IMG/VR virus record: IMGVR_UViG_3300028393_000213
Location: 1 to 33,314 of that record
DNA length: 33,314 nucleotides
DNA from: a virus
Strand: one strand, 5' to 3'
Part shown: positions 9,974 through 26,334 of the stretch, piece by piece
How positions within the stretch are numbered: the stretch's first letter is position 1
Layout: every line of letters starts with the position of its first letter
Made by a program: the position numbers and the translations under genes
The notes under the pieces: model-generated
Seen by the model: the letters and a program-made list of their open reading frames with translations, nothing else
What the model was told of the DNA's origin: nothing
Database searches by the model: none

Positions 9974-9995
9974 CTTTACCACTCCACCACAATGA
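9815..9995. repeat. Duplicated segment, copy B (small gene and fibre 3' end)
   Basis: This stretch matches 11229-11409 with about ten differences. It spans most of the small partner gene and the last bases of the upstream fibre gene. The offset between copies is 1,414 bases. Confidence 0.8.
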
Positions 9996-11220
9996 CTACA
10001 CCTGCGCCGCCAGCGCCGCCAACGCCTCCCAAGAGAGAGTTCGTGCTGTTGCCAGCGCCCCCACCGCCGCCGCCTGCGCCATACGCACCGCCAGCACCAC
10101 CAGCACCACCAGCCACGGTTGTTGCAGACGACCCTCCACCTGCTCCACCCGCCGCGCCAGCTTCGTTCCACATAGCGCCGCCAGCAGAGCTGGTTGCAGT
10201 TCCAGCGGTCCCAGCACCACCGCCCGCCGCTCCTCCGGGCTGCGTCCAAGTCGTGCCATACAGAGCCGTCTGTGCCGCCCCAGCAATCGCGCCCGCAGCG
10301 GTTGCGCCGCCAACGGCGAAACCACCCCCCGATCCGCCGCCACTTGGTCCCGCGAGTAGATTGTTTCCCCCCCCAAAAGACGCACCAGTCGCGCTACTTC
10401 CGCCGCCTCCTGATCCACAGTGAGATACGCCTGCTCCGCCCCCAGCCACACCAAATCCACCGCTTGCAGCACCCCCCGATCCGCCGCCACCTGCTGCCGT
10501 ATTAGACCCGGCATTACCAGCGTTGGGGGTATCACCACCGCTCCCACCGCCGCCAGACGCAACGCTGACTGCGCCGCCAGCGCCACCGCCACCGCCACCG
10601 GCCATGACGGCATAAGAGGTGATGTTGATGACACCAAAACTTGAGTAGCCGCCGTTCCCGCCGACTGGAGTGCCGGATGTTCCGCCTGCACCGAACGACC
10701 CAACAGTGATTGTCACGCTGGTTGCAACAGCAGACGCTGCCATGTTGCGAAACCGCCAACCCGCCCCTCCGCCACCAGCACCACCAGAACCACCTGTGGC
10801 GGCAGCATAAGAGCCACCATATCCACCACCGCCACCACCACCGACAGCGAGCACTTGGACAACGGTGGATGTTGCCAATTTCGTGTAGGTGCCGGACGAC
10901 GTAAACGTCGTGATAGTCGGCGCAATCGGCAAGTTCCCCGTCACCGTGGGCAACGTCAGCGTGCCGGTGTTGACGATGGTGCCGATGATGGGGCTGGTAA
11001 GCGTGGGGCCGGTCCCTAGGACGACTGCACCGCTTCCTGTGCTTGTTGTGGCACCAGTGCCGCCCTGCGCCACGGGCAGCGCGCTTGCCAACGTCACGCC
11101 CGTGGACGTGACGGTGATCTGCGTCACGCCCGCCCCCTGAAGCGCCAGGTTGCCCGACGCATCGGCGGTCGTGACTACGCCACCGCCGCCCGTCGTCGTT
11201 GCGTTGATTGTGCTGGTCAT
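9976..11220 (-). CDS. Glycine-rich tail fibre protein, copy B, 414 aa
   Basis: The N-terminal 125 residues resemble trimeric fibre sequence (GVTLASALPVAQGGTGATTS, GPTLTSPIIG, TLTLPTVTGNLPIAPTITTF), with the AQGGTG motif common in phage tail fibres. From about residue 126 the chain is a glycine-rich domain of short GGGGxGG runs ending GGAGVVIVVEW, the pattern of glycine-rich receptor-binding tips that fold as polyglycine-II sandwiches. Such tips set host range and vary fast. It is paralogous to the gene at 11390-12439: 80 bases encoding the junction are identical, while the glycine-rich tips differ. Start ATG 11220 overlaps the small-gene stop (ATGA). Confidence 0.82.
   Translation of the reverse strand: MTSTINATTTGGGGVVTTADASGNLALQGAGVTQITVTSTGVTLASALPVAQGGTGATTSTGSGAVVLGTGPTLTSPIIGTIVNTGTLTLPTVTGNLPIAPTITTFTSSGTYTKLATSTVVQVLAVGGGGGGGYGGSYAAATGGSGGAGGGGAGWRFRNMAASAVATSVTITVGSFGAGGTSGTPVGGNGGYSSFGVINITSYAVMAGGGGGGAGGAVSVASGGGGSGGDTPNAGNAGSNTAAGGGGSGGAASGGFGVAGGGAGVSHCGSGGGGSSATGASFGGGNNLLAGPSGGGSGGGFAVGGATAAGAIAGAAQTALYGTTWTQPGGAAGGGAGTAGTATSSAGGAMWNEAGAAGGAGGGSSATTVAGGAGGAGGAYGAGGGGGGAGNSTNSLLGGVGGAGGAGVVIVVEW
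10883..10962. repeat. 80-bp exact repeat in fibre gene, copy B
   Basis: These 80 bases are identical by eye to 12285-12364. They encode the segment joining the fibre shaft to the glycine-rich tip. Together with the small-gene repeat they mark a tandem duplication with a period of about 1.4 kb. Confidence 0.88.
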
Positions 11221-11387
11221 GCGGGCTCTACCCTCGTGTTCTCAGGAGGCGCCCACTCGGCAACGCCGTCCCACAGGACGGTGTTAACCACCGATCCAGC
11301 AGGGATGGTGACGGTCGTTACCGTGCCGTCCTCGGCCATCTGCATCTGCTCAATGTCGATTGTCGTGATTACGTTGTATCGGTTCAT
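11217..11387 (-). CDS. Small fibre-partner protein, 56 aa (copy A)
   Basis: ATG 11387 begins two bases after the stop of the upstream fibre gene, and the stop overlaps the next fibre ATG as ATGA (11217-11220). The sequence is MNRYNVITTIDIEQMQMAED followed by a Thr/Val strand and a closing WAPPENTRVEPA, matching the copy at 9794-9973. Most base differences between the copies fall at third positions, which argues for selection on the protein. It would be predicted as a small beta protein. Function is unknown; the constant pairing with a glycine-rich fibre suggests a chaperone or tip-associated subunit. Confidence 0.68.
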   Translation of the reverse strand: MNRYNVITTIDIEQMQMAEDGTVTTVTIPAGSVVNTVLWDGVAEWAPPENTRVEPA

Positions 11388-11409
11388 CTTTACCACTCCA
11401 CTACTATGA
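11229..11409. repeat. Duplicated segment, copy A (small gene and fibre 3' end)
   Basis: Partner of 9815-9995. The two copies are in direct orientation, so homologous recombination between them would remove one fibre gene and one small gene exactly. Confidence 0.8.
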
Positions 11410-12439
11410 CTACACCTGCGCCACCAGCGCCACCAACACCGCCGACAAATGACGAAGTGCTGTTGCCTGCGCCGCCACCTCCGCCTGCCAACCCAAAACC
11501 AGTGCCAGCACCGCCTGCGCCACCGTTAGTTGCCGTGCCAGAGCCGCCACCGGCAGCAGCAGCCCCGATTTGAATAAGCCCAAACTTGAGCGGGGATGGC
11601 CGACCGCCAACACCGCCGACGCTCCCTACTAGGCCGCCAGATGAGTAATAAAAATTACCCTGGGACACTGAAGTGCCGCTGGCGCTACCATTCTGAGCAG
11701 CGCCCGCAACACTGAACCCGCCACCGCTGCCAGCGCTTGTGTAGCCCTGTGTATAATTTCCTCCCTGACCTGCAACTCCGATGGCGGATGTTCCCCCCCC
11801 TCCACTTGTTATAAAAGGCAAGAAGCTATTTACCCCACCTCCACCGACACCAAACCCGCCGCTGGCCGCCAAATTCATCCCAGCGCCGCCGATTGCATTT
11901 GTTCCGAATCCAGCCTGACCGTTTCCATTAGTTCCACCGCCACCGCCACCAGATGCGGTCCCAGCGATGCCAGGAGCGCCGCCTCCGCCGCCGCCGCCGT
12001 ACAAGAAAGCCCCAAACGACGATATACCTCCACGCCCACCCTGCCCTGAAATAGTGCCGCCTGCCGGTGTCACGCCGGATACTCCGGCAGCACCACCCGC
12101 GCCAACAATCACAGCGATTGACCCGGTTAAGTCAGATGCTAGGAACTGCTGAGCATCATACCCTCCAGAGCCGCCACCGCCACCACCTGATCCGCCGCCA
12201 ACGGCAGCATAGGTGCCGCCGAACCCGCCAGCGCCACCACCGCCAAAAATAAGCACCTGCACGATGGTAGATGTCGAGAGTTTGGTGTAGGTGCCGGACG
12301 ACGTAAACGTCGTGATAGTCGGCGCAATCGGCAAGTTCCCCGTCACCGTGGGCAACGTCAGCGTAGGAGAGCCCGCAATTGCAGGCGCCTGGAGCGTAAC
12401 GGAACCGGAAGTGTCGCCCGCGACGACGATTGAACTCAT
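11390..12439 (-). CDS. Glycine-rich tail fibre protein, copy A, 349 aa
   Basis: ATG 12439 is chosen because it overlaps the upstream stop as ATGA; a start at 12451 is possible but less likely. The short shaft (MSSIVVAGDTSGSVTLQAPA) is followed by the LTLPTVTGNLPIAPTITTF segment shared with copy B, then a glycine-rich tip from about residue 65 to the end, closing GGAGVVIVVEW. Compared with copy B it lacks about 60 N-terminal residues with the AQGGTG motif. The interior of the tip (for example YDAQQFLASDLTGS) is unlike copy B. The role is probably host receptor binding as part of the tail fibre; two versions may broaden host range. Confidence 0.8.
   Translation of the reverse strand: MSSIVVAGDTSGSVTLQAPAIAGSPTLTLPTVTGNLPIAPTITTFTSSGTYTKLSTSTIVQVLIFGGGGAGGFGGTYAAVGGGSGGGGGGSGGYDAQQFLASDLTGSIAVIVGAGGAAGVSGVTPAGGTISGQGGRGGISSFGAFLYGGGGGGGAPGIAGTASGGGGGGTNGNGQAGFGTNAIGGAGMNLAASGGFGVGGGGVNSFLPFITSGGGGTSAIGVAGQGGNYTQGYTSAGSGGGFSVAGAAQNGSASGTSVSQGNFYYSSGGLVGSVGGVGGRPSPLKFGLIQIGAAAAGGGSGTATNGGAGGAGTGFGLAGGGGGAGNSTSSFVGGVGGAGGAGVVIVVEW
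12285..12364. repeat. 80-bp exact repeat in fibre gene, copy A
   Basis: Partner of 10883-10962, direct orientation, offset 1,402 bases. Exact identity between otherwise diverged genes points to recent duplication, gene conversion or strong constraint on the joining segment. Confidence 0.88.
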
Positions 12440-13044
12440 ATTGTGATCCACCTCTGGCCAGATGTGACTGTTACGGTAACGCCACTGGCAAGGGTCATTG
12501 GCCCCACCGACATGCCATTAGTTCCCGCCGCAATCGTCGTGCTGGCCGTGATTGTGTTGTTGTTAAAAATAATCCCGTTGGTTGCGCGAACGGAGGCGCC
12601 TGACACCGCGCCAGTAGCTGCCAGGCTGGTGCCGGTGGCCGCGCCAATATTTGGCGTCGTCAGCGTCGGGCTAGTGGCGAGCACCAGGCTACCGGTGCCG
12701 GATACCGCGTAATTCTGGATAGCCCCCGTGTCGTTGATTTGAACGAAACCAGACGCTGGGGCGGTCAGGAAAATATCCGACGCTCCCGTCAGGGACACCA
12801 GGGCGTTCGCGTTGCTCGAAGCGGTTACTGTTGTGCGCGCCAGACCCGTTGCGCTCGCAAGCGTTCCAACACCGATCTCCCAGAACAAGCCCGACTGCGA
12901 GACGATCGCGTAATAACAGGTGTCTGAAATCGCCAGCACCGACGCAAACGTCCGAAAATTAGCCGCTGCCCCGGCGAGGGTGATACTCCCCGTGCCGACC
13001 GTAGCGGTCGTTTCTTTTACCCGGTCTTTGCTGACAAACGACAT
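12436..13044 (-). CDS. Tail fibre / virion attachment protein, 202 aa
   Basis: The start SKDRVKETTATVGTGSITLA, then CYYAIVSQSGLFWEIGVGTL and a run giving LARTTVTASSNAN, is the widespread N-terminal module of phage fibre proteins, in which a virion-binding domain is followed by a variable shaft. The second half (GTGSLVLATSPTLTTPNIG, SGASVRATNGIIF) is trimeric shaft-like sequence ending GVTVTVTSGQRWITI. The protein is shorter than most fibres, and two glycine-rich fibre genes follow with an ATGA overlap, so it may be the proximal segment to which those tips attach. This assembly order is inference. Confidence 0.78.
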   Translation of the reverse strand: MSFVSKDRVKETTATVGTGSITLAGAAANFRTFASVLAISDTCYYAIVSQSGLFWEIGVGTLASATGLARTTVTASSNANALVSLTGASDIFLTAPASGFVQINDTGAIQNYAVSGTGSLVLATSPTLTTPNIGAATGTSLAATGAVSGASVRATNGIIFNNNTITASTTIAAGTNGMSVGPMTLASGVTVTVTSGQRWITI

Positions 13045-13058
13045 TTTACATCACTCGC

Positions 13059-14150
13059 TTATGTGGTCAGACCGCTTGGGCGCAGCGTCCAGCTTCCGTT
13101 CGCTGGCGCCTGGCCTGCCGCGAGCGTCAGCCGGAGCCAGAGACCTTGAGCCTGCGCCGCGGTATTCGCAGCGGCCGATTGCTGAACAGGCGTGACGATC
13201 TGTGGCGCGGCGCCGGACGAGTATGAACCGACGCCAGATGCCGGAGCCGTCTGCCGGTTCGTCGCGGCCACGCTGTCGTTCAGCGTAGAGCACGGCGCCA
13301 GGTCGAGCGCCCCGCTGCCAGCATACAGCCCCGCCGGGTCGGTCTGCTTGGCCACCGTCATCGTCGTCAGCGCCGTAGTGCCGTCCGTATTGAGGGCGAA
13401 GATTTTCTCGTAATAAATCCGGGTCAAGCCACCGATCACGTCAGCCGACACGCCCGCGAATGGCCGGATCACCGCCGTGACAGGGTTGGGGAGGATTGGG
13501 AACAGGAAGCCGTTCGCCACTTCATAGGTCGAGGTGGCATCAGGCACCGTAGTCCATGCGCGGTTCACAGCCACGATGTCCGTCCCGTATTGGCCAGTGC
13601 CGGTGCCGGAGAGCGAGCAGACCTGCCGCAGTTGGCCCGAGCCTGTGCCGCCCGTGACGCGGATGATTTGGCCGAGGGTGACGCCGGCGCCGTCACCCGA
13701 TTGGAGTTTGAAGATCGGCGGCGTCACGCCCGTGGGGTTAGCCGACCCCGTTTGTGCCGTATGTACAGTGATCGACAGGGTGTGCGCCATCAGCGCGACA
13801 TCGCCCGTCGCAGCGGTGCCTGCGGGGTTCGCCAGCGGGCCGTTGGCAGTCGCACCAGAGAGCGCGCCATAGAGCAGGCGGGAGAGGGATTTGGCGCCTG
13901 AGACCTTGGTGGTGCCGGTCAGGGTCAGCGTCTCAGACTGCACGATGCCGCTGCTGTCTCGACCCGAGTAGACGATCTTGGTGGCGGTATCGCCAGCCGC
14001 AGACGACACAACATCCATCAGAGATGCGGCGCTCAGGTCCGCAAAACTGATAATTCGCGTGAGATCGACAGCGCCGCCGACTGTGGCGCTGTCGGCTTCG
14101 GGCATGGACGCAGACCCGTAGAAGATGACCTCTTGCGGCCAGACGCTCAT
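13059..14150 (-). CDS. Phage tail/baseplate structural protein, 363 aa
   Basis: The chain is low in cysteine and rich in Thr, Ser, Gly and Ala, typical of virion proteins, and starts VWPQEVIFYGSASMPEADSA. Beta-strand patterns dominate, with a segment TLTGTTKVSGAKSLSRLLYG around residues 75-95 and IRVTGGTGSGQLRQVCS near 165. The last 40 residues (RLTLAAGQAPANGSWTLRPS) form a compact end. I recognise it only as a conserved phage structural protein found between tip and fibre genes in alphaproteobacterial siphophages. It may be the adaptor that carries fibres on the tip complex. It is separated from neighbours by short gaps (14 and 30 bases). Confidence 0.62.
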   Translation of the reverse strand: MSVWPQEVIFYGSASMPEADSATVGGAVDLTRIISFADLSAASLMDVVSSAAGDTATKIVYSGRDSSGIVQSETLTLTGTTKVSGAKSLSRLLYGALSGATANGPLANPAGTAATGDVALMAHTLSITVHTAQTGSANPTGVTPPIFKLQSGDGAGVTLGQIIRVTGGTGSGQLRQVCSLSGTGTGQYGTDIVAVNRAWTTVPDATSTYEVANGFLFPILPNPVTAVIRPFAGVSADVIGGLTRIYYEKIFALNTDGTTALTTMTVAKQTDPAGLYAGSGALDLAPCSTLNDSVAATNRQTAPASGVGSYSSGAAPQIVTPVQQSAAANTAAQAQGLWLRLTLAAGQAPANGSWTLRPSGLTT

Positions 14151-18005: not shown

Positions 18006-18943
18006 GCAGCCGTCTCCGGAGAGGGGATGTAGGGCTCGCCGCCGAAATTGGCGATATTTCCCCAGGTGGTGCATGTCGCCATTTTCTTGTCGCAGCCGGG
18101 CCAGGCGGTGAACGCGTCTCCGGCCGTGACTGCGAATGGCATCGGGGCGATCAGAGCGAGCTGCAAGGTGGTGGTCACCTGCGTCATGCTGCGGACCGAG
18201 CGCGAAAAGCCGGAGTTGCGACCGCTGGTGAACAAGATGCGCCCGAGGGCATAGGTCCCCGAGCCACCAGGTAGCCCGCTGGTGGCGACGATCAGCGACT
18301 GCGTGCTGCCGCTGCCGACGGTGAGACTGGCGGCATAGGAAGAGGCGATGAGGCTGCATCCGGCGTCGAACAGCACCCGACTGCATCCGGCCTGATACAG
18401 ATTGCGCGGCATGCTCTGGTCGAGCAGTTCCAGGTGACTATTGACGGTGATTTCGACCGTCGCGCGGTCGACGTCGATCGCTGCGACCCGGCCGGTGAAA
18501 ATGTTCACCACGCCGGTTGGGGCCAGTATCAGAGCACGAGGATACGCTGGCCAGGCGGCGAGATAGGCGCGGTCGACCTGGACTATCGCGCCGTCCAGAG
18601 CACCCGCGCGAGCCGCTGCAAGCCAAGGCGTGCTGCCGATGGCGTCGGGATATGCGGCGTTGGTGATCGGATCTACTGAGCGCGGGATCACCGAGAATTG
18701 CCAGGTGTCGACATCGAGGCCGAGCTTCCAGTGGGCGGTTGGCTTGCGGTCCGGATGCTCGATGAACGGGCCGCTGTGGGACCAGGTGTTGCCTCCATAG
18801 GCCCAGTCGCTGTCGCCGGCCGCCAGGCGCAGCACCACGCCGGTCGCCAGCGTGATCGTGTAGAGATCAGCCCAGACGAAGGCGCGGGCCCCCAGCAGGG
18901 CTACCAGGGCGCCCGTCGAGGTCTCGTATTTCGCGGTTTTCAC
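18002..18943 (-). CDS. DUF2163/BR0599 tail protein, 313 aa
   Basis: The protein matches gp13 of the Rhodobacter gene transfer agent family: VKTAKYETSTGALVALL with ADLYTITLATGVVLRLAAGD at the start, a long middle of strands (GRVAAIDVDRATVEITV), and the BR0599 C-terminal pattern DAGCSL, then WPGCDKKMATCTTWGNIAN and FGGEPYIPSP with conserved cysteines. This protein forms the hub/adaptor region of the tail tip; the cysteines may bind an iron-sulphur cluster in relatives. GTG 18943 is preferred over an in-frame ATG at 18982 because it overlaps the upstream stop as GTGA and matches the family start (KTA...LVALL). Confidence 0.88.
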   Translation of the reverse strand: MKTAKYETSTGALVALLGARAFVWADLYTITLATGVVLRLAAGDSDWAYGGNTWSHSGPFIEHPDRKPTAHWKLGLDVDTWQFSVIPRSVDPITNAAYPDAIGSTPWLAAARAGALDGAIVQVDRAYLAAWPAYPRALILAPTGVVNIFTGRVAAIDVDRATVEITVNSHLELLDQSMPRNLYQAGCSRVLFDAGCSLIASSYAASLTVGSGSTQSLIVATSGLPGGSGTYALGRILFTSGRNSGFSRSVRSMTQVTTTLQLALIAPMPFAVTAGDAFTAWPGCDKKMATCTTWGNIANFGGEPYIPSPETAA

Positions 18944-19518
18944 AGTTTCACCGTCGAGAATTTGAGCGAGGACAGCGCCCATTGGGTCGCACCGAATTGT
19001 TCGAAATCAACGCTGTCGTCGTCAAAGGTGCACAACCAGTTGAACGTGCCGGTCCATGTCAAAACCGCCGCTGCGGCCGGTGCAACGGTGAAGGTCACAA
19101 CACCCGTCGCGCTAATCGTGAGGGCTGAGGTCGGCGTGCCATTGACGGAGATCACAGGCGATCCAGTCGGCAGAAACACCGGCTCGATGAACCCGCCATA
19201 GGACCGGACCAGCTGCCAAGCGCGGGTTGCACCGTCGCCTGTGCCGAAATTCTGAGCGGTCACGCTTCCGTCTGTGGGGTCGGCGTACTGGAACACGAGC
19301 GCCGAGCCGAGGGATGCATTGTAGAACCCGGCGAGGGTCGTCAGTTCAGTGCCATCGCGGAGCAGTTCGAACCCGAACTCATAGCGCCAGCGCGGCCACG
19401 ACCACAGCGAAAACCGGCTCTCCTGCCCGCCGACAGACGGCTGTTTGACGGTCGACCAGATCGGGGTGCGCTTCGGAAAGCCGATTGTCGTCAGCGCGGG
19501 GAATGTGGGAATGGTCAT
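18940..19518 (-). CDS. DUF2460 tail tip protein, 192 aa
   Basis: This is the gp12-like distal tail protein of gene-transfer-agent-type tails. The family signature is clear: PALTTIGFPKRTPIWSTVKQ, SVGGQESRFSLWSWPRWRYE, then LTTLAGFYNASLGSALVFQY and a core ending in FEQFGATQWALSSLKF. Relatives end in a similar W-x-L/C-x-x-V-x-L pattern. It is thought to connect the tail tube end to the hub. The ATG at 19518 shares one base with the tape-measure stop, and the stop overlaps the next gene. Confidence 0.9.
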   Translation of the reverse strand: MTIPTFPALTTIGFPKRTPIWSTVKQPSVGGQESRFSLWSWPRWRYEFGFELLRDGTELTTLAGFYNASLGSALVFQYADPTDGSVTAQNFGTGDGATRAWQLVRSYGGFIEPVFLPTGSPVISVNGTPTSALTISATGVVTFTVAPAAAAVLTWTGTFNWLCTFDDDSVDFEQFGATQWALSSLKFSTVKL

Positions 19519-22178
19519 TAATATGCCAGCCGCAGTGAGGGGTTGTTCTTCATCTGGGCGCTCACGATCCGGGCGAGTTCAGCACCGTTCGAGCGGAACA
19601 AGGCCGCAACAGACGAGGCGTCATTGGCGTGGACGTGGAGATGGACAGCACCGCCGCCACCAGCGGCGCCAGGCGCAGACGGGAATGGAGATGCGCCGCC
19701 TCGGATACCGGCCGCGACGTCGGCGGGGATGATCATTTCCCCGGCGTGAACCTGGGCGACCATGTCGGAGGGGAGCGACCAGGCGCCGACGTCGAACGAG
19801 GGCAGCATCCCGAACGCCGACACAGCGGCGAAGGCCACGCCGGCGGCGATGGGAGCGAGCACGGGGCCGACAATGGGAATTTCTACAATCGCCGCATACG
19901 CACCGGCAGCAGCCCTCGCTGCCTTTCCTCCGATGTCGCTGGCAGTCGTCGTCATGTTGATCGCCTTTGTCGCCCCCGCGGCCGATATCTCGGCGGCTTC
20001 TCGAACCGTGAGGCCAGTGACCGTCGCCGTCGTTTTTGTGGTCTCCATCCCCAGCCATGCCGCGATCTTGCTGGTGATCAGCGCGTCGAAGCCGGAGTCA
20101 CCGCGCGCGATGGCGGAGCGAACGGCGGTTGCAGTCGCCGACACTTCGTTTTTTGTCATCTCCATGGCAATCCACCGGCCGACCATGTGCATGCCCATGT
20201 TGACCGCGCTCTCAAGCACCGCGGTCGCCACCTTCTGCTGGGCCTTCCGCCATGTCTCAGTCCCGGTGATCAAGCCGGTGATGGTCGAACGACCAGCGCT
20301 GGCGATGCCGTCAAATGCCTGCTTGTAGACGCGCATCTGAGCCTCATTGGCCTTGATCACCTCTTCAGTGGCGCGTGACTGCTCCTGGATTTGACGGTCA
20401 GCCAACTCACGGGCGAGCTTCTCACGGGCGTGCATCGCCTCGCGTTCGGCCAGCGTGCCCTTTGCCAGCGTGGCGATCAGGTTGTCGAGTTGCCGCAGTT
20501 CCTGTTCGCCGATCAGAGCGGTTTGGTCGACAACGCCTTGCAGGATTTCGGCGTGAGACTTCTTGCGCTCGGCCTGCATCTGGGTCGCTGCCGCACGAAC
20601 CGCCTGAACGTCCTCGCGGGCCGCCTCCTCGACGAGACGGACTTGCTCCATCACTGCCGAGCGAACGACCTGCGTCTGAATTTTCAGTTCGTCTTTGTAG
20701 AGTTTTGAGTGCTCACCCTCGGCTGCGCGGATGATCGCTAGCTTCTGATTTTCAAGGTCCTGGACCATCCCCAGGTTATCGTGGTTCGCCGCTACTTCAG
20801 CCGCCAGGCCGGCCAGGTGCTCTTGCAAAGTGTGCTTGGCTGATCGCTCGGCCAGGCGCTGCATGATCATGTCACGCGCTTCTTCGGCCTGGACCAGCTT
20901 GTCCTCGGCCTCGATGCGGTTCTTGGTTCCTTCTTTGGTCTGGCCGACAACCCCCTGCCAGAACGTGACTGTCGCCTTGGCCTCCCCCTCGTGTGTCGCG
21001 CGCCAGTCTTTGCCCTGCGTCCGGGCTGCCATGCCAGCTTCGCGGGTGACAAGGTGCAGCTGCTCGGTCATCTGCTGCGACCAGGAGACCGGCGGAGGGG
21101 TCTTCATCTGGTCGGTCAGCGCGCCCAGGGCTGCCTTCGTGCGTTCGATCGCGGCGATTTGCTTCTTGGAAGGATCAACCTCACCCGAGGCCGGTCCAGT
21201 GCCCTGAAGGCCGGGCTGGCGCTTGGCCAGGTCCTGCTGCTGGCCGACTAGCGCCTTAAATGCATTGCCCTGGGCGCCAAGACTGGTCTGGGTGTTCACC
21301 TCGCGGGTGTTCCGCGCCAGTTCGTACAACAGGATCGACCGAGCCTTGATGGCGTCGTTGTCCTCCGCCGCTTTAGTGAAAGCCTTTATAGTCTCGGGGA
21401 GGGCGCGGGTCTTCTCCAACAGCTCGGCGCCAGCGCGCGCGTTGAGGTTCCAGGCCTCGACAATGCGTCCAGCCGCCTGCGGTACGTCATCGCCCATCCG
21501 CAGAGCGAGCTGCGACACGCCCGAAGTAAGTTCGTCGATAACAGGCTTTGATGTGCCGGGGATCGAGGCAAAAGCATGGACGACCTTACCGGCCACCTCG
21601 ACGCCGGTGTCGCCGATCTTCGCCAGTTTCTTGACCTGGGCATCTAGATCGGCATTGGAGACGCCGGACCCAATGCCACCGGCCTCGGCGAGCAGTTTGG
21701 CGTCATGCAGCTTATGCAGCCACTCGATCAAATGCATCGCGGCCATCGCGCCGACACCGAAGGCGCCAGCCAGCGCCATCATCGCCCCAGAATTGCCTGC
21801 CATGCGGCTGGTCAAAATCATCAGCGACCCGCCCATCTTGCTGAACCGGCCGGACATCGCCTCATGAACCAGCACCATGGCCTCGGTCGCCGCGCCGTGG
21901 TTGTGCGTCGCCTTTGTCAGCTCCTCCAGCGCAGGCTTGGCCGTCTTCAACTGCGTCGAATAGTTGGTGACCGACCCCTTGGCCGTATTCATCGCCGCCG
22001 ACGCTTTTTCGAGCGCCACGATCTGCTCAGCCGTCGCCTGATTGCCGGCGGTTCGGACCTCCTGCGCCGCCTTCCGCACCTCGGCCGAATAGTGCTTCAA
22101 GTCCTCCTGCGCCAACGCAAGCTGGGCGCGCAGCTTCGTGGCATCAGCGGTGATGTTTACGGAAATATTATCGGCCAT
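19518..22178 (-). CDS. Tail tape measure protein, 886 aa
   Basis: The protein starts with a coiled-coil region (MADNISVNITADATKLRAQL, then QEDLKHYSAEVRKAAQEVRT) and continues with long helical segments, a hydrophobic stretch near residues 125-150 (GAMMALAGAFGVGAMAAMHL) and a second near 750-790 (IVGPVLAPIAAGVAFAAVS). It ends GEMIIPADVAAGIRGG and a His/Val-rich tail, common in tape measure proteins of alphaproteobacterial phages. It sets tail length and is injected with DNA. AGGAAA before ATG 22178 supports the start. It follows the frameshifted chaperone, the standard position. No muralytic domain was seen. Confidence 0.9.
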   Translation of the reverse strand: MADNISVNITADATKLRAQLALAQEDLKHYSAEVRKAAQEVRTAGNQATAEQIVALEKASAAMNTAKGSVTNYSTQLKTAKPALEELTKATHNHGAATEAMVLVHEAMSGRFSKMGGSLMILTSRMAGNSGAMMALAGAFGVGAMAAMHLIEWLHKLHDAKLLAEAGGIGSGVSNADLDAQVKKLAKIGDTGVEVAGKVVHAFASIPGTSKPVIDELTSGVSQLALRMGDDVPQAAGRIVEAWNLNARAGAELLEKTRALPETIKAFTKAAEDNDAIKARSILLYELARNTREVNTQTSLGAQGNAFKALVGQQQDLAKRQPGLQGTGPASGEVDPSKKQIAAIERTKAALGALTDQMKTPPPVSWSQQMTEQLHLVTREAGMAARTQGKDWRATHEGEAKATVTFWQGVVGQTKEGTKNRIEAEDKLVQAEEARDMIMQRLAERSAKHTLQEHLAGLAAEVAANHDNLGMVQDLENQKLAIIRAAEGEHSKLYKDELKIQTQVVRSAVMEQVRLVEEAAREDVQAVRAAATQMQAERKKSHAEILQGVVDQTALIGEQELRQLDNLIATLAKGTLAEREAMHAREKLARELADRQIQEQSRATEEVIKANEAQMRVYKQAFDGIASAGRSTITGLITGTETWRKAQQKVATAVLESAVNMGMHMVGRWIAMEMTKNEVSATATAVRSAIARGDSGFDALITSKIAAWLGMETTKTTATVTGLTVREAAEISAAGATKAINMTTTASDIGGKAARAAAGAYAAIVEIPIVGPVLAPIAAGVAFAAVSAFGMLPSFDVGAWSLPSDMVAQVHAGEMIIPADVAAGIRGGASPFPSAPGAAGGGGAVHLHVHANDASSVAALFRSNGAELARIVSAQMKNNPSLRLAY

Positions 22179-22490
22179 TTTCCTGCTTCTCTTCTAGCAG
22201 AGACCAATCAACCGGCCGCTGCGGAGTAGATGGCGCATCACCCGAACGGGGCGGCCGGGGAGTCTTCTTCGCGGGTATTTTGAAATATGCCTGCACCAGC
22301 CACTGAACCGGCGGATGGTCTGTCCAGTAACGCCGCTGGGCGAGATACATCGGGAGCGACCAGCGCTCCCATATCGCCTCTGGCGAACCGCCCTCCATGC
22401 CGGCGGCAGCCAGTTCAGCAACGATATACTCTAAGTCGAGGTCGTCTCCGTTTCGGCCGCCGGGGTCTCCGGCGGCGCCGCTTCCCCCTC
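22168..22490 (-). CDS. Tail-assembly chaperone extension, probably made by -1 frameshift
   Basis: This frame overlaps the end of the chaperone gene in its -1 frame and is open through the region of the slip. Its clear part reads LDLEYIVAELAAAGMEGGS, AIWERWSLPMYLAQRRYW and HPPVQWLVQAYFKI, like second tail-assembly chaperones (lambda T-type). An ATG at 22398 has no ribosome site, and the gap from the upstream stop (33 bases) is unlike the tight spacing elsewhere, so translation by frameshift is preferred. A run of five G followed by AA (bases 22482-22488, read on the minus strand) is the best slip candidate but is not a perfect heptamer. The start given is the estimated upper limit of the frameshift zone. 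Confidence 0.6.
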
Positions 22491-22793
22491 GCGCACGAGC
22501 CCCGAGTCGACCATCAGGCGATGGACGGCTGCCGAGATGCCCGCACGCTCGTCGGTGCCGGCCACGCGATTGACCAGCAGGCGACGCTTAATCTCCGGCA
22601 CCGTCAGTTCAGGGCGCACGGTGACGACAGCAGCCGAGATGATGGCGATGTCGGCCGCGAGACCTTCCACCGGATCAGTGGCGATCGACGACGCCTTGAT
22701 CGCCGGCCAAGCACGCTCCAGGGCTGCGAAGTTCAGGATGGCGGGAACCACAACGCTCTCGCCACCGATAATGACGATGTTTTGTTGGGACAT
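22431..22793 (-). CDS. Tail-assembly chaperone (G-like), 120 aa
   Basis: This protein coats the tape measure protein before tube assembly. It starts MSQQNIVIIGGESVVVPAIL, continues with helical segments (AADIAIISAAVVTVRPELTV, IKRRLLVNRVAG) and ends in an acidic Pro/Thr-rich tail, which is typical of the G-like chaperone and is where frameshifting usually occurs. The position between the tail tube gene and tape measure gene is diagnostic. AAAAGG lies upstream of ATG 22793. It ends at a TAG at 22431; the alternative -1 frame continues to 22168. Confidence 0.8.
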   Translation of the reverse strand: MSQQNIVIIGGESVVVPAILNFAALERAWPAIKASSIATDPVEGLAADIAIISAAVVTVRPELTVPEIKRRLLVNRVAGTDERAGISAAVHRLMVDSGLVREGEAAPPETPAAETETTST

Positions 22794-22802
22794 TGGAACC
22801 TT

Positions 22803-23552
22803 TTACAGAGACGTGTTGATAAAGCCGATATTGCCGGCGACGTCGGCCGCGATCTGAAAGTCAATTTCAAGGATGGTAAAATCATCCTGTTTTGTCGGGA
22901 GACTCAACTTGCTCGCCTGGCAGTTATTGAACGAGTAAAGAGCCTGCCGACCGTCGTACGGCTGAGACAGGTTGATCGTGAATGCCGGACCAGAACCCAT
23001 GGCGAGGTTCGTGATCGGAATCTGAACACCGGCCACAGACGAGTAAGTGTAGCTGACGTAGACGGCGGCCGAGGCGTCGGCCACAGCGAACGTGTAGACG
23101 CCGGCAGAGACGCTGTATTGACCGACGGTCATGCCCGAGGCCACACGCTTGAGAGGCAGCCCGGTCAGCGCGTAATAAACACCCTGGTCGGCGAGGAAGG
23201 TAGCCGAGTTGGTCACCGTCACGGTGTAGGTGCTCACGGCGGGAACGGTCCCTGGCTCGCTGTCGGCGAACAGGGTTTGCGTTGCCGGGGTCGTCGCAGC
23301 GCCGAAGTAGATGTCGTTGAACAGGCTGCCACGGATCGAGGCGAATTTCGCCTTCAGGCTGACCTTCGTCTTCCCCGGAGCCAGCGCGATGGCGTAGCGT
23401 TTCTGGCCATACAACTCCTTCAGGTCGGCCGAGAAATCGAGCGTGGCGTCCTGCAAAATGCCGAAGCGTCGGGGTGTAGCAGGGCTGGCGGTGAGGCTGG
23501 TGCCGATGAGAACACCTGCGGCGAAACCGAGTTGGTCAGCGTATAGGGACAT
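22803..23552 (-). CDS. Major tail protein, copy B, 249 aa
   Basis: One of two adjacent paralogues of the tail tube subunit. The N-terminus MSLYADQLGFAAGVLIGTSL and the C-terminal block YDGRQALYSFNNCQASKLSL are shared with copy A; by eye roughly four residues in five agree. The differences cluster at about residues 20-26, 98-115 and 138-160, which may be surface loops. The chain is mainly beta, as expected for the tube fold. The stop is ten bases before the chaperone ATG. Its upstream region repeats AGCGAGGCCTGAC before the ATG, which includes the end of the gene before copy A, so this copy looks like the duplicate. Confidence 0.82.
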   Translation of the reverse strand: MSLYADQLGFAAGVLIGTSLTASPATPRRFGILQDATLDFSADLKELYGQKRYAIALAPGKTKVSLKAKFASIRGSLFNDIYFGAATTPATQTLFADSEPGTVPAVSTYTVTVTNSATFLADQGVYYALTGLPLKRVASGMTVGQYSVSAGVYTFAVADASAAVYVSYTYSSVAGVQIPITNLAMGSGPAFTINLSQPYDGRQALYSFNNCQASKLSLPTKQDDFTILEIDFQIAADVAGNIGFINTSL

Positions 23553-23569
23553 GTCAGGCCTCGCTTATA

Positions 23570-24313
23570 CTAGAGGGATGTGTTGATGCTACCGATGTTG
23601 CCGCTCAGGTCGGCGGCGATCATAAAATCGATCTCAGCGATCATGAAATCATCCTGCTTGGTGGGCAGAGACAGCTTCGACGCCTGGCAGTTATTGAACG
23701 AATACAGAGCCTGCCGACCGTCGTACGGCTGCGACAGGTTGATTGTGAACGCGGGACCGCTGCCCATGGCGAGGTTCGTGATCGGGATCTGAACACCGGC
23801 GGCGGACGAGTAAGTGTAGCTGATATAGACGGCCAGCGAGGCGTCGGCCGCAGCGAACGTGTAGGTGCCGCCGGTCAGTGAATATGTGCCGGTGGATGGC
23901 GCTGAGGCCACACGCCGGAGAGGCATGCCCGTCAGCGCGTAGTAGACGCCCTGGTCGGCCAGGAAGGTAGCCGAGTTGGCAACAGGCGCCGACCAGGGGG
24001 TCGACGCGGGGATCGTCACCGCCTCGCTATCGGCGAACAACGTCTGGGTCGCGGTGGAGGTCGCGCCGAAGTAGATGTCGTTGAACAGAGCACCACGGAT
24101 CGACGCGAATTTCGCCTTGATCGAGACCTTCGTCTTGCCGGGTGCCAGCGCGATGGCGTAGCGTTTCTGGCCATACAACTCCTTCAGGTCGGCCGAGAAA
24201 TCGAGCGTGGCGTCCTGCAAAATGCCGAACCGGCGCGGGGTGGAGTTCGCGGCCAGGCTGGTGCCGATGAGGACACCTGCGGCGAAACCGAGTTGGTCAG
24301 CGTATAGGGACAT
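23570..24313 (-). CDS. Major tail protein, copy A, 247 aa
   Basis: This is the upstream paralogue and probably the ancestral position. It matches copy B over nearly its whole length (for example TPRRFGILQDATLDFSADL and KTKVSIKAKFASIRG), with short divergent parts such as AVTIPASTPWSAPVAN. It follows the tail terminator and a small gene, as a tail tube gene should, and is followed by a second tube gene, then the chaperones. The ATG lies one base after the preceding stop. Which of the two copies makes the tube, or whether both mix, cannot be told from sequence. Confidence 0.82.
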   Translation of the reverse strand: MSLYADQLGFAAGVLIGTSLAANSTPRRFGILQDATLDFSADLKELYGQKRYAIALAPGKTKVSIKAKFASIRGALFNDIYFGATSTATQTLFADSEAVTIPASTPWSAPVANSATFLADQGVYYALTGMPLRRVASAPSTGTYSLTGGTYTFAAADASLAVYISYTYSSAAGVQIPITNLAMGSGPAFTINLSQPYDGRQALYSFNNCQASKLSLPTKQDDFMIAEIDFMIAADLSGNIGSINTSL

Positions 24314-24314
24314 G

Positions 24315-24518
24315 TCAGGCCTCGCTCAAAAGGCGCGCACGAAGGATCGGCAGCGCAGTGGCGGTCAGGAGATTATAGGCCTCAGTCGACCGGGAGACGG
24401 GGCCGTCGTTGATGAATTCGACCACCCAGGCCACGAACACTGCATCAATGGCGTCGGCGCGAGAATTAGGCAGCGGCGGCGGAGCATCGAGAGCGGGCGC
24501 TTCAATGGTGTCGGACAT
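24315..24518 (-). CDS. Small hypothetical protein, 67 aa
   Basis: The protein is acidic with a Pro-rich N-terminus (MSDTIEAPALDAPPPLPN) and a helical body (ADAIDAVFVAWVVEFINDGP, then AYNLLTATALPILRARLLSE). No family is recognised. It lies between the tail terminator-like gene (9 bases away) and the first major tail protein, one base before its ATG. Small genes of this position occur in other siphophages but are unnamed. The last 10 bases of this gene seem to have been copied in front of the second major tail gene. Confidence 0.65.
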   Translation of the reverse strand: MSDTIEAPALDAPPPLPNSRADAIDAVFVAWVVEFINDGPVSRSTEAYNLLTATALPILRARLLSEA

Positions 24519-24527
24519 GGGGGGTTC

Positions 24528-24956
24528 CTAATTCAGTGCAGGACAGAGAATTGAGACGGGAATGACGGCGATCGCCTGACCATCAAGGTCGCCGGGATAG
24601 ATCTCGATTTTCCCCTCGATCCATGCGTGCGTGACGGTGCCGCCGAGGGTCTGCACGACGCCAGGCGCCGGTTTCAGCAGCGCCTCGATCGTGTCGAGCA
24701 GCCCGTCCATCGCCACCGATGGCGCGACTTGGCTGTCCTTGCCGGACTGGCTGTAGACCCAGACTTCCGTCTCCATCGTGATCTTTGGAGGCATCCCGGT
24801 CGCACGCGCGGAGTAGTGGTCGCCGACGTGGCGGACAAAAACGGCCGGCTGGCTCCTCACCTCGGTCCAGGGCACCAGGCGCCGCCCGGAGGTGTTGAAT
24901 GCGCCGGTGCTGTTGAGCAGCTGGAGCACGGCGTCAACAATCGTGGACCGGCTCAT
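24528..24956 (-). CDS. Tail terminator-like protein, 142 aa
   Basis: The protein begins SRSTIVDAVLQLLNSTGAF and has alternating strands and helices (RSQPAVFVRHVGDHYS, ITMETEVWVYSQSGK, then DTIEALLKPAPGVVQTLG and an ending GQAIAVIPVSIL). The size, fold pattern and position just before the tail tube gene fit a tail terminator or tail completion protein (lambda U-like), which caps the tail and joins it to the connector. Identity is by position and general pattern, not a firm motif. ATG 24956 overlaps the upstream stop as ATGA. Confidence 0.65.
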   Translation of the reverse strand: MSRSTIVDAVLQLLNSTGAFNTSGRRLVPWTEVRSQPAVFVRHVGDHYSARATGMPPKITMETEVWVYSQSGKDSQVAPSVAMDGLLDTIEALLKPAPGVVQTLGGTVTHAWIEGKIEIYPGDLDGQAIAVIPVSILCPALN

Positions 24957-25456
24957 GCGTCGCTCTCCGCTGCTGCGAAGGCGATGGCTGCGCGCATTTC
25001 AGACAGCGCTGATTGTTGCAAGGATTTGATCGGACCGCGCAGGAAGTTCATGGCGCGCAGCGTCGGCGTGCGACTATACGTTCCGACGTCGACGGGCGCA
25101 CCCATACGCGCGCGCAGCCAGACGTGGTCGAGGCGCATCTTGTGGGCGCTTTGAGTGACTGCCACGCCTCGTGAACCGTATTCTAAGGCGGCAGCCTTGC
25201 GCGCTTTCGACTGAGATTGTGTTCTGACCCCGACCACGGCTGCAATGCGGTCGCCGTGGTCATAAACCCGGCCACCAGTCAGACTCTTGAGTTCTCCCGA
25301 CCGCTCGGGCTCCGCTGCCAGAACGGCAGCCTCCAAACGCCTCTCCAGGCTGGTCAGCGTGGCGAACAAACGGTCGTGCAGCACCGCTGGAAACTTATCG
25401 AACCGCAGGACGGCTCGAGTGTCGCCAGCGATATCTACAGCGAAAAAGTCGGTCAC
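24953..25456 (-). CDS. HK97-gp10-like head-tail joining protein, 167 aa
   Basis: The sequence FDKFPAVLHDRLFATLTSLE then RRLEAAVLAAEPERSGELK is like the N-terminal helices of HK97 gp10-type proteins, and the later RKAAALEYGSRG matches their conserved AxxxEYGT-like motif. The last part, NFLRGPIKSLQQSALSEMRA, is the usual C-terminal helix. Such proteins take part in joining the head-tail connector to the tail. It overlaps both neighbours by ATGA (25453-25456 and 24953-24956). The family call is good; exact function is by analogy. Confidence 0.78.
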   Translation of the reverse strand: MTDFFAVDIAGDTRAVLRFDKFPAVLHDRLFATLTSLERRLEAAVLAAEPERSGELKSLTGGRVYDHGDRIAAVVGVRTQSQSKARKAAALEYGSRGVAVTQSAHKMRLDHVWLRARMGAPVDVGTYSRTPTLRAMNFLRGPIKSLQQSALSEMRAAIAFAAAESDA

Positions 25457-26334
25457 GCCGTCACCGGCACGCGATAGCTGTCGAGCATGCCCGATATTTC
25501 TGTGGTGAACACGCCAGTCTGGCCAGGCGACCCGCCCACCCAGTAGCTCTGCTCACCGAGGCCAGGCTGGATCGAGGTCTTGAGGAGCGGATCACGGCCA
25601 CGACCGGCGACCCGCTGCGTGATAATGCGGAGCACGGCGTCAACGATGTCGGCCGGGATCGTGGCGTATCCGCCCTGATAGACCACGGATGTCGGCAGCG
25701 CGGACCAGGTGACCGGGTATCCTGTCACTGCATCGATCCGGATCAGCCAGCCCTTTTTGCTGTCGACCTGATAGTCGACGCCGGCCGTCAAAATGGTGAC
25801 GGCCCCACCAGCCGAAGTCTGGGTCACCGCCGGGCCGAACGCGATTGATGTGCCGGAGGCGATCGCGGCGGTCGTCGAGCGGCTGAGGGTGACGCTGACG
25901 TTGGCCGTGATGATGGTGATCACCGATCCGACAGCAACACCCACGCCAGTCACCGGCTGACCGACCGAGAGACCTGACGTCGAGGCGAATGGCAGGACGC
26001 TGGCACCGATCGCCGCGGCGCTCGATGTCGCCACCACCACCGATGTGCTGACCACTGGATAGCGGCTGAGTTGCACGACCGCCAGGCCACCAGGCGTCTG
26101 GAACGGATACGGGTCGCGGTCGGGAATGACCAGGTCCTGCACCGTCTCCAGCGAAAATGTCCGGTTGCAATAATTCGATGCCGCTGAAGATGCCTGCGTT
26201 ATTGCCCGACCAATGAAGGCGTCGTTCGACGTTTCACCGATAGCGATCGATAGTTCGCTCTTGGCGGTGGCGAGGTCCGTCAGGTCATAACTCGGCGCCG
26301 CGACCAGCGTGGTCGAGAGGATTTCGACGGTCAT
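25453..26334 (-). CDS. Head-tail connector protein with inserted domain, 293 aa
   Basis: The start (PSYDLTDLATAKSELSI, DAFIGRAITQASSAASNYCN) is the DNA-packaging/connector helical domain of gp6-like proteins. The core strands (YPVVSTSVVV and, later, TAGVDYQVDSKKGWLIR) are interrupted by about 75 residues, roughly 101-175, rich in Ala, Ser, Thr and Val with the pattern GLSVGQPVTGVGVAVGSVIT and VTLSRSTTAAIASG. The C-terminal helical part (PADIVDAVLRIITQRVAGRG) is standard. The protein joins the portal to the tail. The insertion resembles short beta modules in fibres and surface proteins. The ATG 26334 is 15 bases after the small gene upstream. Confidence 0.78.
   Translation of the reverse strand: MTVEILSTTLVAAPSYDLTDLATAKSELSIAIGETSNDAFIGRAITQASSAASNYCNRTFSLETVQDLVIPDRDPYPFQTPGGLAVVQLSRYPVVSTSVVVATSSAAAIGASVLPFASTSGLSVGQPVTGVGVAVGSVITIITANVSVTLSRSTTAAIASGTSIAFGPAVTQTSAGGAVTILTAGVDYQVDSKKGWLIRIDAVTGYPVTWSALPTSVVYQGGYATIPADIVDAVLRIITQRVAGRGRDPLLKTSIQPGLGEQSYWVGGSPGQTGVFTTEISGMLDSYRVPVTA

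Follow-up and report, generated by a model that had tools for sequence, protein, structure and literature searches.

A tandem pair of tail tube genes in a phage whose products differ mainly in a predicted decoration domain

Phages that carry paralogous major tail genes are already known, and two groups of sequenced phages offer close parallels to the locus described here. All 56 sequenced phages of Gordonia cluster DJ have two major tail protein genes, and genes 22 and 24 of the cluster member FortCran resemble our pair in being two related major tail genes of one tail operon (PMC12859696). However, the FortCran copies are described as 43% identical, separated by one gene, different in G+C content and unequal in length, one having a 51-residue C-terminal extension, and the authors inferred horizontal gain (PMC12859696), whereas our copies are 84% identical, directly adjacent, similar in G+C and most readily read as a tandem duplication. 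Two major tail genes are also reported for Damascus, a phage of Microbacterium cluster EL, (PMC11080557), and both Damascus and DizzyRudy (MK814756) resemble our locus in that a single operon holds a set of paralogues bearing the annotation major tail protein. The EL genes differ in their older divergence (by our computation, the three so annotated in DizzyRudy, genes 17, 19 and 20, have pairwise identities of 42-51%), in the roughly doubled length of one copy, and in the actinobacterial hosts of the phages. The available portions of these two accounts yielded no role for a second major tail gene in phages with paralogous pairs (PMC11080557, PMC12859696).

Other characterized tubes bear on the structural side of the comparison. 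Phage SPP1 builds its tube from two subunits that differ on the surface, gp17.1 and gp17.1*, mixed at 3:1 in one tube, and a tube made solely of gp17.1 is viable (PMC8718954, PMC6316719). The likeness lies in the two surface variants, which in our case are known from the genes alone; the difference is that the SPP1 forms come from one gene, a programmed +1 frameshift adding an FN3 domain, whereas the present locus has two complete genes, each with its own start and stop, and an internal decoration domain. JBD30 gp44 and YSD1_22 have the same core fold as our proteins, interrupted after the core helix by an inserted domain, but each is described as the product of a single gene and is 11-12% identical to our copies in fold alignments. 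The pair reported here is thus of a known kind, but it is younger, adjacent and simpler, and it belongs to another group of phages.

The two genes lie on the minus strand of the window (the whole stretch of DNA analysed, a virus record of 33,314 bases), where they run head to tail with a gap of 17 nt. Both are intact open frames with ATG starts, the upstream copy at 23570-24313 encoding 247 aa and the downstream copy at 22803-23552 encoding 249 aa. The first-pass annotation of this DNA had recognized adjacent, tandem paralogues with "about four residues in five alike", and that estimate was accurate: 208 of 247 aligned residues are identical (84%), as are 601 of the 741 nucleotides in aligned codons (81%), with two single-codon indels. 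One copy used as a tblastn query against the window recovers the other at E 1.9e-131, which excludes a chance likeness, and a blastn self-comparison matches 22804-23565 to 23571-24326, that is, from the 13 nt AGCGAGGCCTGAC to the end of the gene. The concern that the duplication might be an artefact of assembly was also addressed. The pair recurs in three sister contigs (IMGVR_UViG_3300010885_028299, 3300027749_000214 and 3300010157_000832) that are 99.98-100% identical to the window over the region, their three base differences all falling outside both tube genes. This recurrence excludes an artefact of a single assembly and, together with the 19% nucleotide divergence between the copies, rules out the artefact explanation. 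Both frames are intact in all four contigs.

Identification of the products rests on fold and gene order, since neither copy reached the cut-off of any Pfam family and searching the PDB by sequence profile gave no significant match for the tube protein. Both copies match PHROG 8234, a family without an assigned function. AlphaFold2, run for each copy on a 34-row alignment, gave models with a mean pLDDT of 79-80 and a pTM of 0.56, in which core beta strands, a hinge loop at about residues 45-56 and a helix at 74-82 are followed by an inserted decoration domain at about residues 90-172, itself predicted at pLDDT 95-98. The arrangement equals that of JBD30 gp44, in which the hinge loop spans residues 42-62, the helix 77-83 and the decoration domain 88-175 (PMC11445458). 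Foldseek placed tail tube proteins at the top for both models (best E 3e-11 to 5e-11, probability 1.00), the matches including the SPR/SPbeta tail tube protein (8ygm), which was best for the upstream copy at E 5e-11 and matched the downstream copy at E 2.8e-11, a further tail tube protein (8xkn), and the proteins of JBD30 (8rk3_f), YSD1 (6xgr), Chi and Mystique. With TM-scores of at most about 0.6 and the pTM of 0.56, the relative placement of the domains is uncertain, but the fold call is firm. On predicted fold and gene order, both products are siphophage major tail (tube) proteins, in agreement with the first-pass assignment. The predicted decoration domain occupies residues 91-172 of the upstream copy (23798-24043, minus strand) and about residues 92-174 of the downstream copy (23031-23279, minus strand), where it also matches a profile of the domain at E 7.6e-35.

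Matches to the decoration domain also occur outside tube genes of the usual form. The decoration-domain part of the tube profile matches, in locus L007, both a large protein encoded downstream of the tape measure gene (10842-13199) and a protein annotated as a head-tail connector, and in many loci (L023, L024, L026-L037, L039-L041 and L047) it matches a reading frame that lies some 1-2 kb upstream from the tube gene. In the window itself, a DUF2460 gene (18943-19578, minus strand) gives a weak match (E 0.0065) and is perhaps a distant copy of the surface domain. A related single-copy tube gene of 317 aa (L038, 2998-3948) has about 65-70 extra residues within its decoration domain, and by eye this insert resembles a loop in the connector-like protein of the window (25453-26334). 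From these sequence matches, the domain looks like a mobile one used in several probable virion parts.

The surrounding genes follow the order of a tail operon: a terminator-like gene of PHROG 8150, a gene of 67 aa, the tube pair, two small genes and the tape measure gene (PHROG 2854), all on the minus strand. By its PHROG and position, the gene at 24528-24956 encodes a probable tail terminator; the 67-aa open frame (24315-24518) lies directly upstream of the pair, and Brevundimonas phage Strzyga (L007, 4169-4477) has, by eye, a similar small gene at the same place. Downstream of the pair, 22431-22793 encodes a probable tail assembly chaperone, gpG-like by position, and 22168-22398 a second probable chaperone reading frame, again by position. 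Loci L006, L010 and L014 have the same gene order with a single tube gene, followed by homologues of both small genes. The tape measure gene (19518-22178; PHROG 2854, E 1.1e-15) encodes 886 aa. As a rough rule, each tape-measure residue corresponds to about 0.15 nm of tail and each ring to about 4.2 nm, which for this protein would give about 30 rings and near 190 tube subunits. A simple scan for sigma-70 promoters and terminators detected nothing on the minus strand between the two tube copies.

We gathered relatives by profile searches of viral contigs, named phages and prophages, which yielded 245 loci; these encode 156 distinct proteins, which fall into 112 clusters at 90% identity. Two full tube copies are present only in this phage and its sister contigs, and about 110 other clusters are single-copy, so the expectation that one copy is the norm held among these relatives, with one pair-bearing lineage; most loci were surveyed with flanks of 2.5-6 kb, a span in which a distant second copy could be missed. 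The seven named phage records that were searched whole have one tube-gene place each. One of these single-copy loci (L228, 2492-3265) has its tube gene in two frames, matching profile positions 1-41 and 43-247, through a frameshift mutation or a sequencing error. The nearest cellular relative lies in a Rhodospirillales genome, and a prophage survey across the order of that genome detected family members in 19 of the 43 genomes covered, none of them with two full-length copies side by side, short contigs being a limit of this survey. One Rhodospirillales genome, JAQGIC01 (G001), holds a broken tube-gene remnant with an internal TAG (contig C88, 71730-71939, locus L104) along with two intact tube genes (C88, 94701-95363, and C140, 34399-35115). 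A megablast search of window positions 1-25000 against named phages gave no match.

The 34-row tree groups the two copies with each other as sisters at support 100/99, and the nearest sampled relatives are 61-66% identical to them, a pattern that points to a likely tandem duplication within this lineage. An alternative origin, compatible with any function of the pair, is acquisition of the second copy by recombination from a near relative. For such an origin it may be said that the identity of the sampled relatives would leave room for an unsampled close donor, and that horizontal gain of one copy was inferred for Gordonia cluster DJ (PMC12859696). We consider it improbable in view of the sister relationship, the similar G+C contents (0.617 and 0.595, in a window of 0.630, giving no indication of foreign origin) and the start of the repeated unit within the last codons of the upstream gene, as a simple tandem duplication would produce. 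The window also contains a second neighbouring pair of paralogues, glycine-rich and tail-fibre-like, with related N- and C-terminal parts (9976-11220 and 11390-12451, minus strand). These share 54% amino-acid identity over 353 columns, a figure inflated by low-complexity glycine runs, and nucleotide identities of 82% over 194 nt and 78% over 139 nt.

The 13 nt of AGCGAGGCCTGAC stand directly before both ATGs, at 24314-24326 and 23553-23565 (minus strand). At the upstream site they cover the codons S-E-A-stop of the 67-aa gene, the stop having been noticed in the first reading of the sequence, and at the downstream site they form the left edge of the duplicated unit. They include a probable ribosome-binding site (GAGG, 6 nt before the ATG) and, with the first 41 coding nucleotides, make up a 54-nt tract identical in both copies. 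The first-pass annotation had further argued that the copy at 23570-24313, lying at the original junction, is the original. That argument fails, because the old upstream junction stays with the first copy, and the old downstream one with the second, whenever a gene is duplicated in tandem; moreover, as the 13 nt contain a probable ribosome-binding site and border on an identical tract, either selection or gene conversion could preserve their identity. Polarised amino-acid changes number 15 in the upstream copy and 13 in the downstream copy, with 13 ambiguous. Neither copy can be called the original, and the direction of the duplication cannot be told from the sequence.

The alignment and comparison of synonymous with nonsynonymous change that had been proposed for this pair gave, depending on method, an overall dN of 0.11-0.13, a dS of 0.58-0.86 and a dN/dS of about 0.14-0.22 (NG86, 0.22), values which, from two copies, are averages in which a recent relaxation in one copy could be hidden. 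The pair is under purifying selection, and the low dN/dS together with the intact frames rules out that either copy is a pseudogene. By NG86, dN/dS is 0.14 in the core and 0.40 in the decoration domain at near-equal dS (0.57 and 0.59). The observation that differences gather in a few short segments, probably on the surface, was accurate and can now be made specific: 26 of the 77 decoration-domain residues differ, compared with 13 of 170 elsewhere (Fisher 7e-7, with a domain boundary set after the data were seen that agrees with the predicted structure), and a second cluster of changes falls in the C-terminal strands at residues 224-242. Because the decoration domain evolves faster across the whole family (mean site rate 1.24 vs 0.91), the split was tested against site rates from relatives. 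The domain holds 67% of the differences (26/39) against 36-43% expected, an excess with p 0.0015-0.005 for rates from the whole family and 0.00015-0.0008 for those from near relatives, and we regard it as real but moderate. Synonymous differences within the domain (18/56) are like those in the rest of the core; synonymous divergence is therefore not raised there, so that a more distant donor is not needed and import of the domain from a more distant phage is ruled out. Either the decoration domain has been freer to change or selected to differ, or the core has been held alike more than usual, as is expected if both proteins must fit the same assembly.

A contrasting pattern is seen at codons 29-56, where none of 28 codons differs synonymously between the copies against 61 of 178 elsewhere (Fisher 3e-5; run-length permutation p 0.0014). 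Relatives compared with the window copies differ synonymously at 9-10 of 22-25 codons in this stretch, so the codons are not frozen, and a codon constraint common to all the phages is ruled out as the source of the identity. The tract comprises 86 identical nucleotides (24144-24229 in the upstream copy and 23380-23465 in the downstream copy, minus strand) encoding the predicted hinge loop and its flanking strands, and a recent gene conversion is the likely explanation on this sequence evidence. In JBD30 the hinge loop connects successive rings (PMC11445458), and the tract here includes the loop predicted to do so, although the location of the conversion at this loop may be a matter of chance.

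We favor, with a probability of roughly 0.55, the reading that both copies are kept as working structural genes whose products co-assemble into one tube bearing two kinds of decoration domain. Both genes would be expressed as parts of one operon, each with the same signals for translation, and their products would share hexameric rings or else a stack of rings, as a random mix, in alternate rings or with one subunit at one end; co-assembly is suggested by the assembly surfaces (hinge loop and core sheets), whose likeness selection and gene conversion appear to maintain. Such a tube would then carry two decoration domains on its surface, which may modify its weak interactions with host cells or make the rings more or less stable. 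Distinct roles for the two copies, as proposed in the first-pass annotation, are plausible. The mixed tube of SPP1 provides a precedent (PMC8718954, PMC6316719), and neither of our copies decays, with frames intact in four contigs and an overall dN/dS of 0.22. However, the inserted domain of YSD1 packs on its ring neighbour (PMC8718954), so that divergence in this domain could instead sort subunits into like-with-like rings, and relaxed constraint on one redundant copy would likewise place changes in the decoration domain. Relaxation of this sort is the essence of a rather unlikely alternative in which the second copy supplies extra tube protein or is a passing redundancy, to be lost in time, while its less constrained decoration domain drifts. 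The somewhat faster evolution of the domain family-wide, the identical ribosome-binding region before both copies and the restriction of the pair to one lineage, as a transient state predicts, all fit this alternative, but the changes are more concentrated than the rate pattern of the family itself would predict, and about 0.58-0.86 synonymous changes per site have accrued with neither frame lost.

The co-assembly reading can be taken further, although we hold the extension to be quite doubtful: gene conversion would keep the surfaces that join one ring to the next exchangeable, and selection would drive the decoration domains apart, so that a single virion would display two surface specificities over the length of its tail. 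Contact between the YSD1 inserted domain and the adjacent subunit within a ring (PMC8718954), along with the cluster of changes in the C-terminal strands, would also suit a division of labour in which one copy builds the bulk of the tube, the other supplies the initial or final rings beside the distal tail protein or the terminator, and like prefers like. The predicted ring-joining hinge region is nonetheless identical in both copies and gives no hint of different stacking partners, making such position-specific rings improbable. Finally, the closest solved structure is that of SPR, whose tail tube protein activates the defence sensor DSR2 (PMC11263360), and two variants might in principle dilute or alter the trigger of a DSR2-like host system; yet one recognised copy would be enough to set off the sensor, an added variant has no obvious benefit, and this phage is tied to no particular host or defence system, so this explanation seems to us very far-fetched.

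Compared with the sequenced examples of paralogous major tail genes, the present pair is younger and simpler, in that it retains the same neighbours, all sampled relatives have one copy, and its divergence falls mostly in one surface domain. It therefore constitutes a clean test case for distinguishing among mixed tubes, specialised rings and effects of dosage only, and also for the role of the decoration domain.
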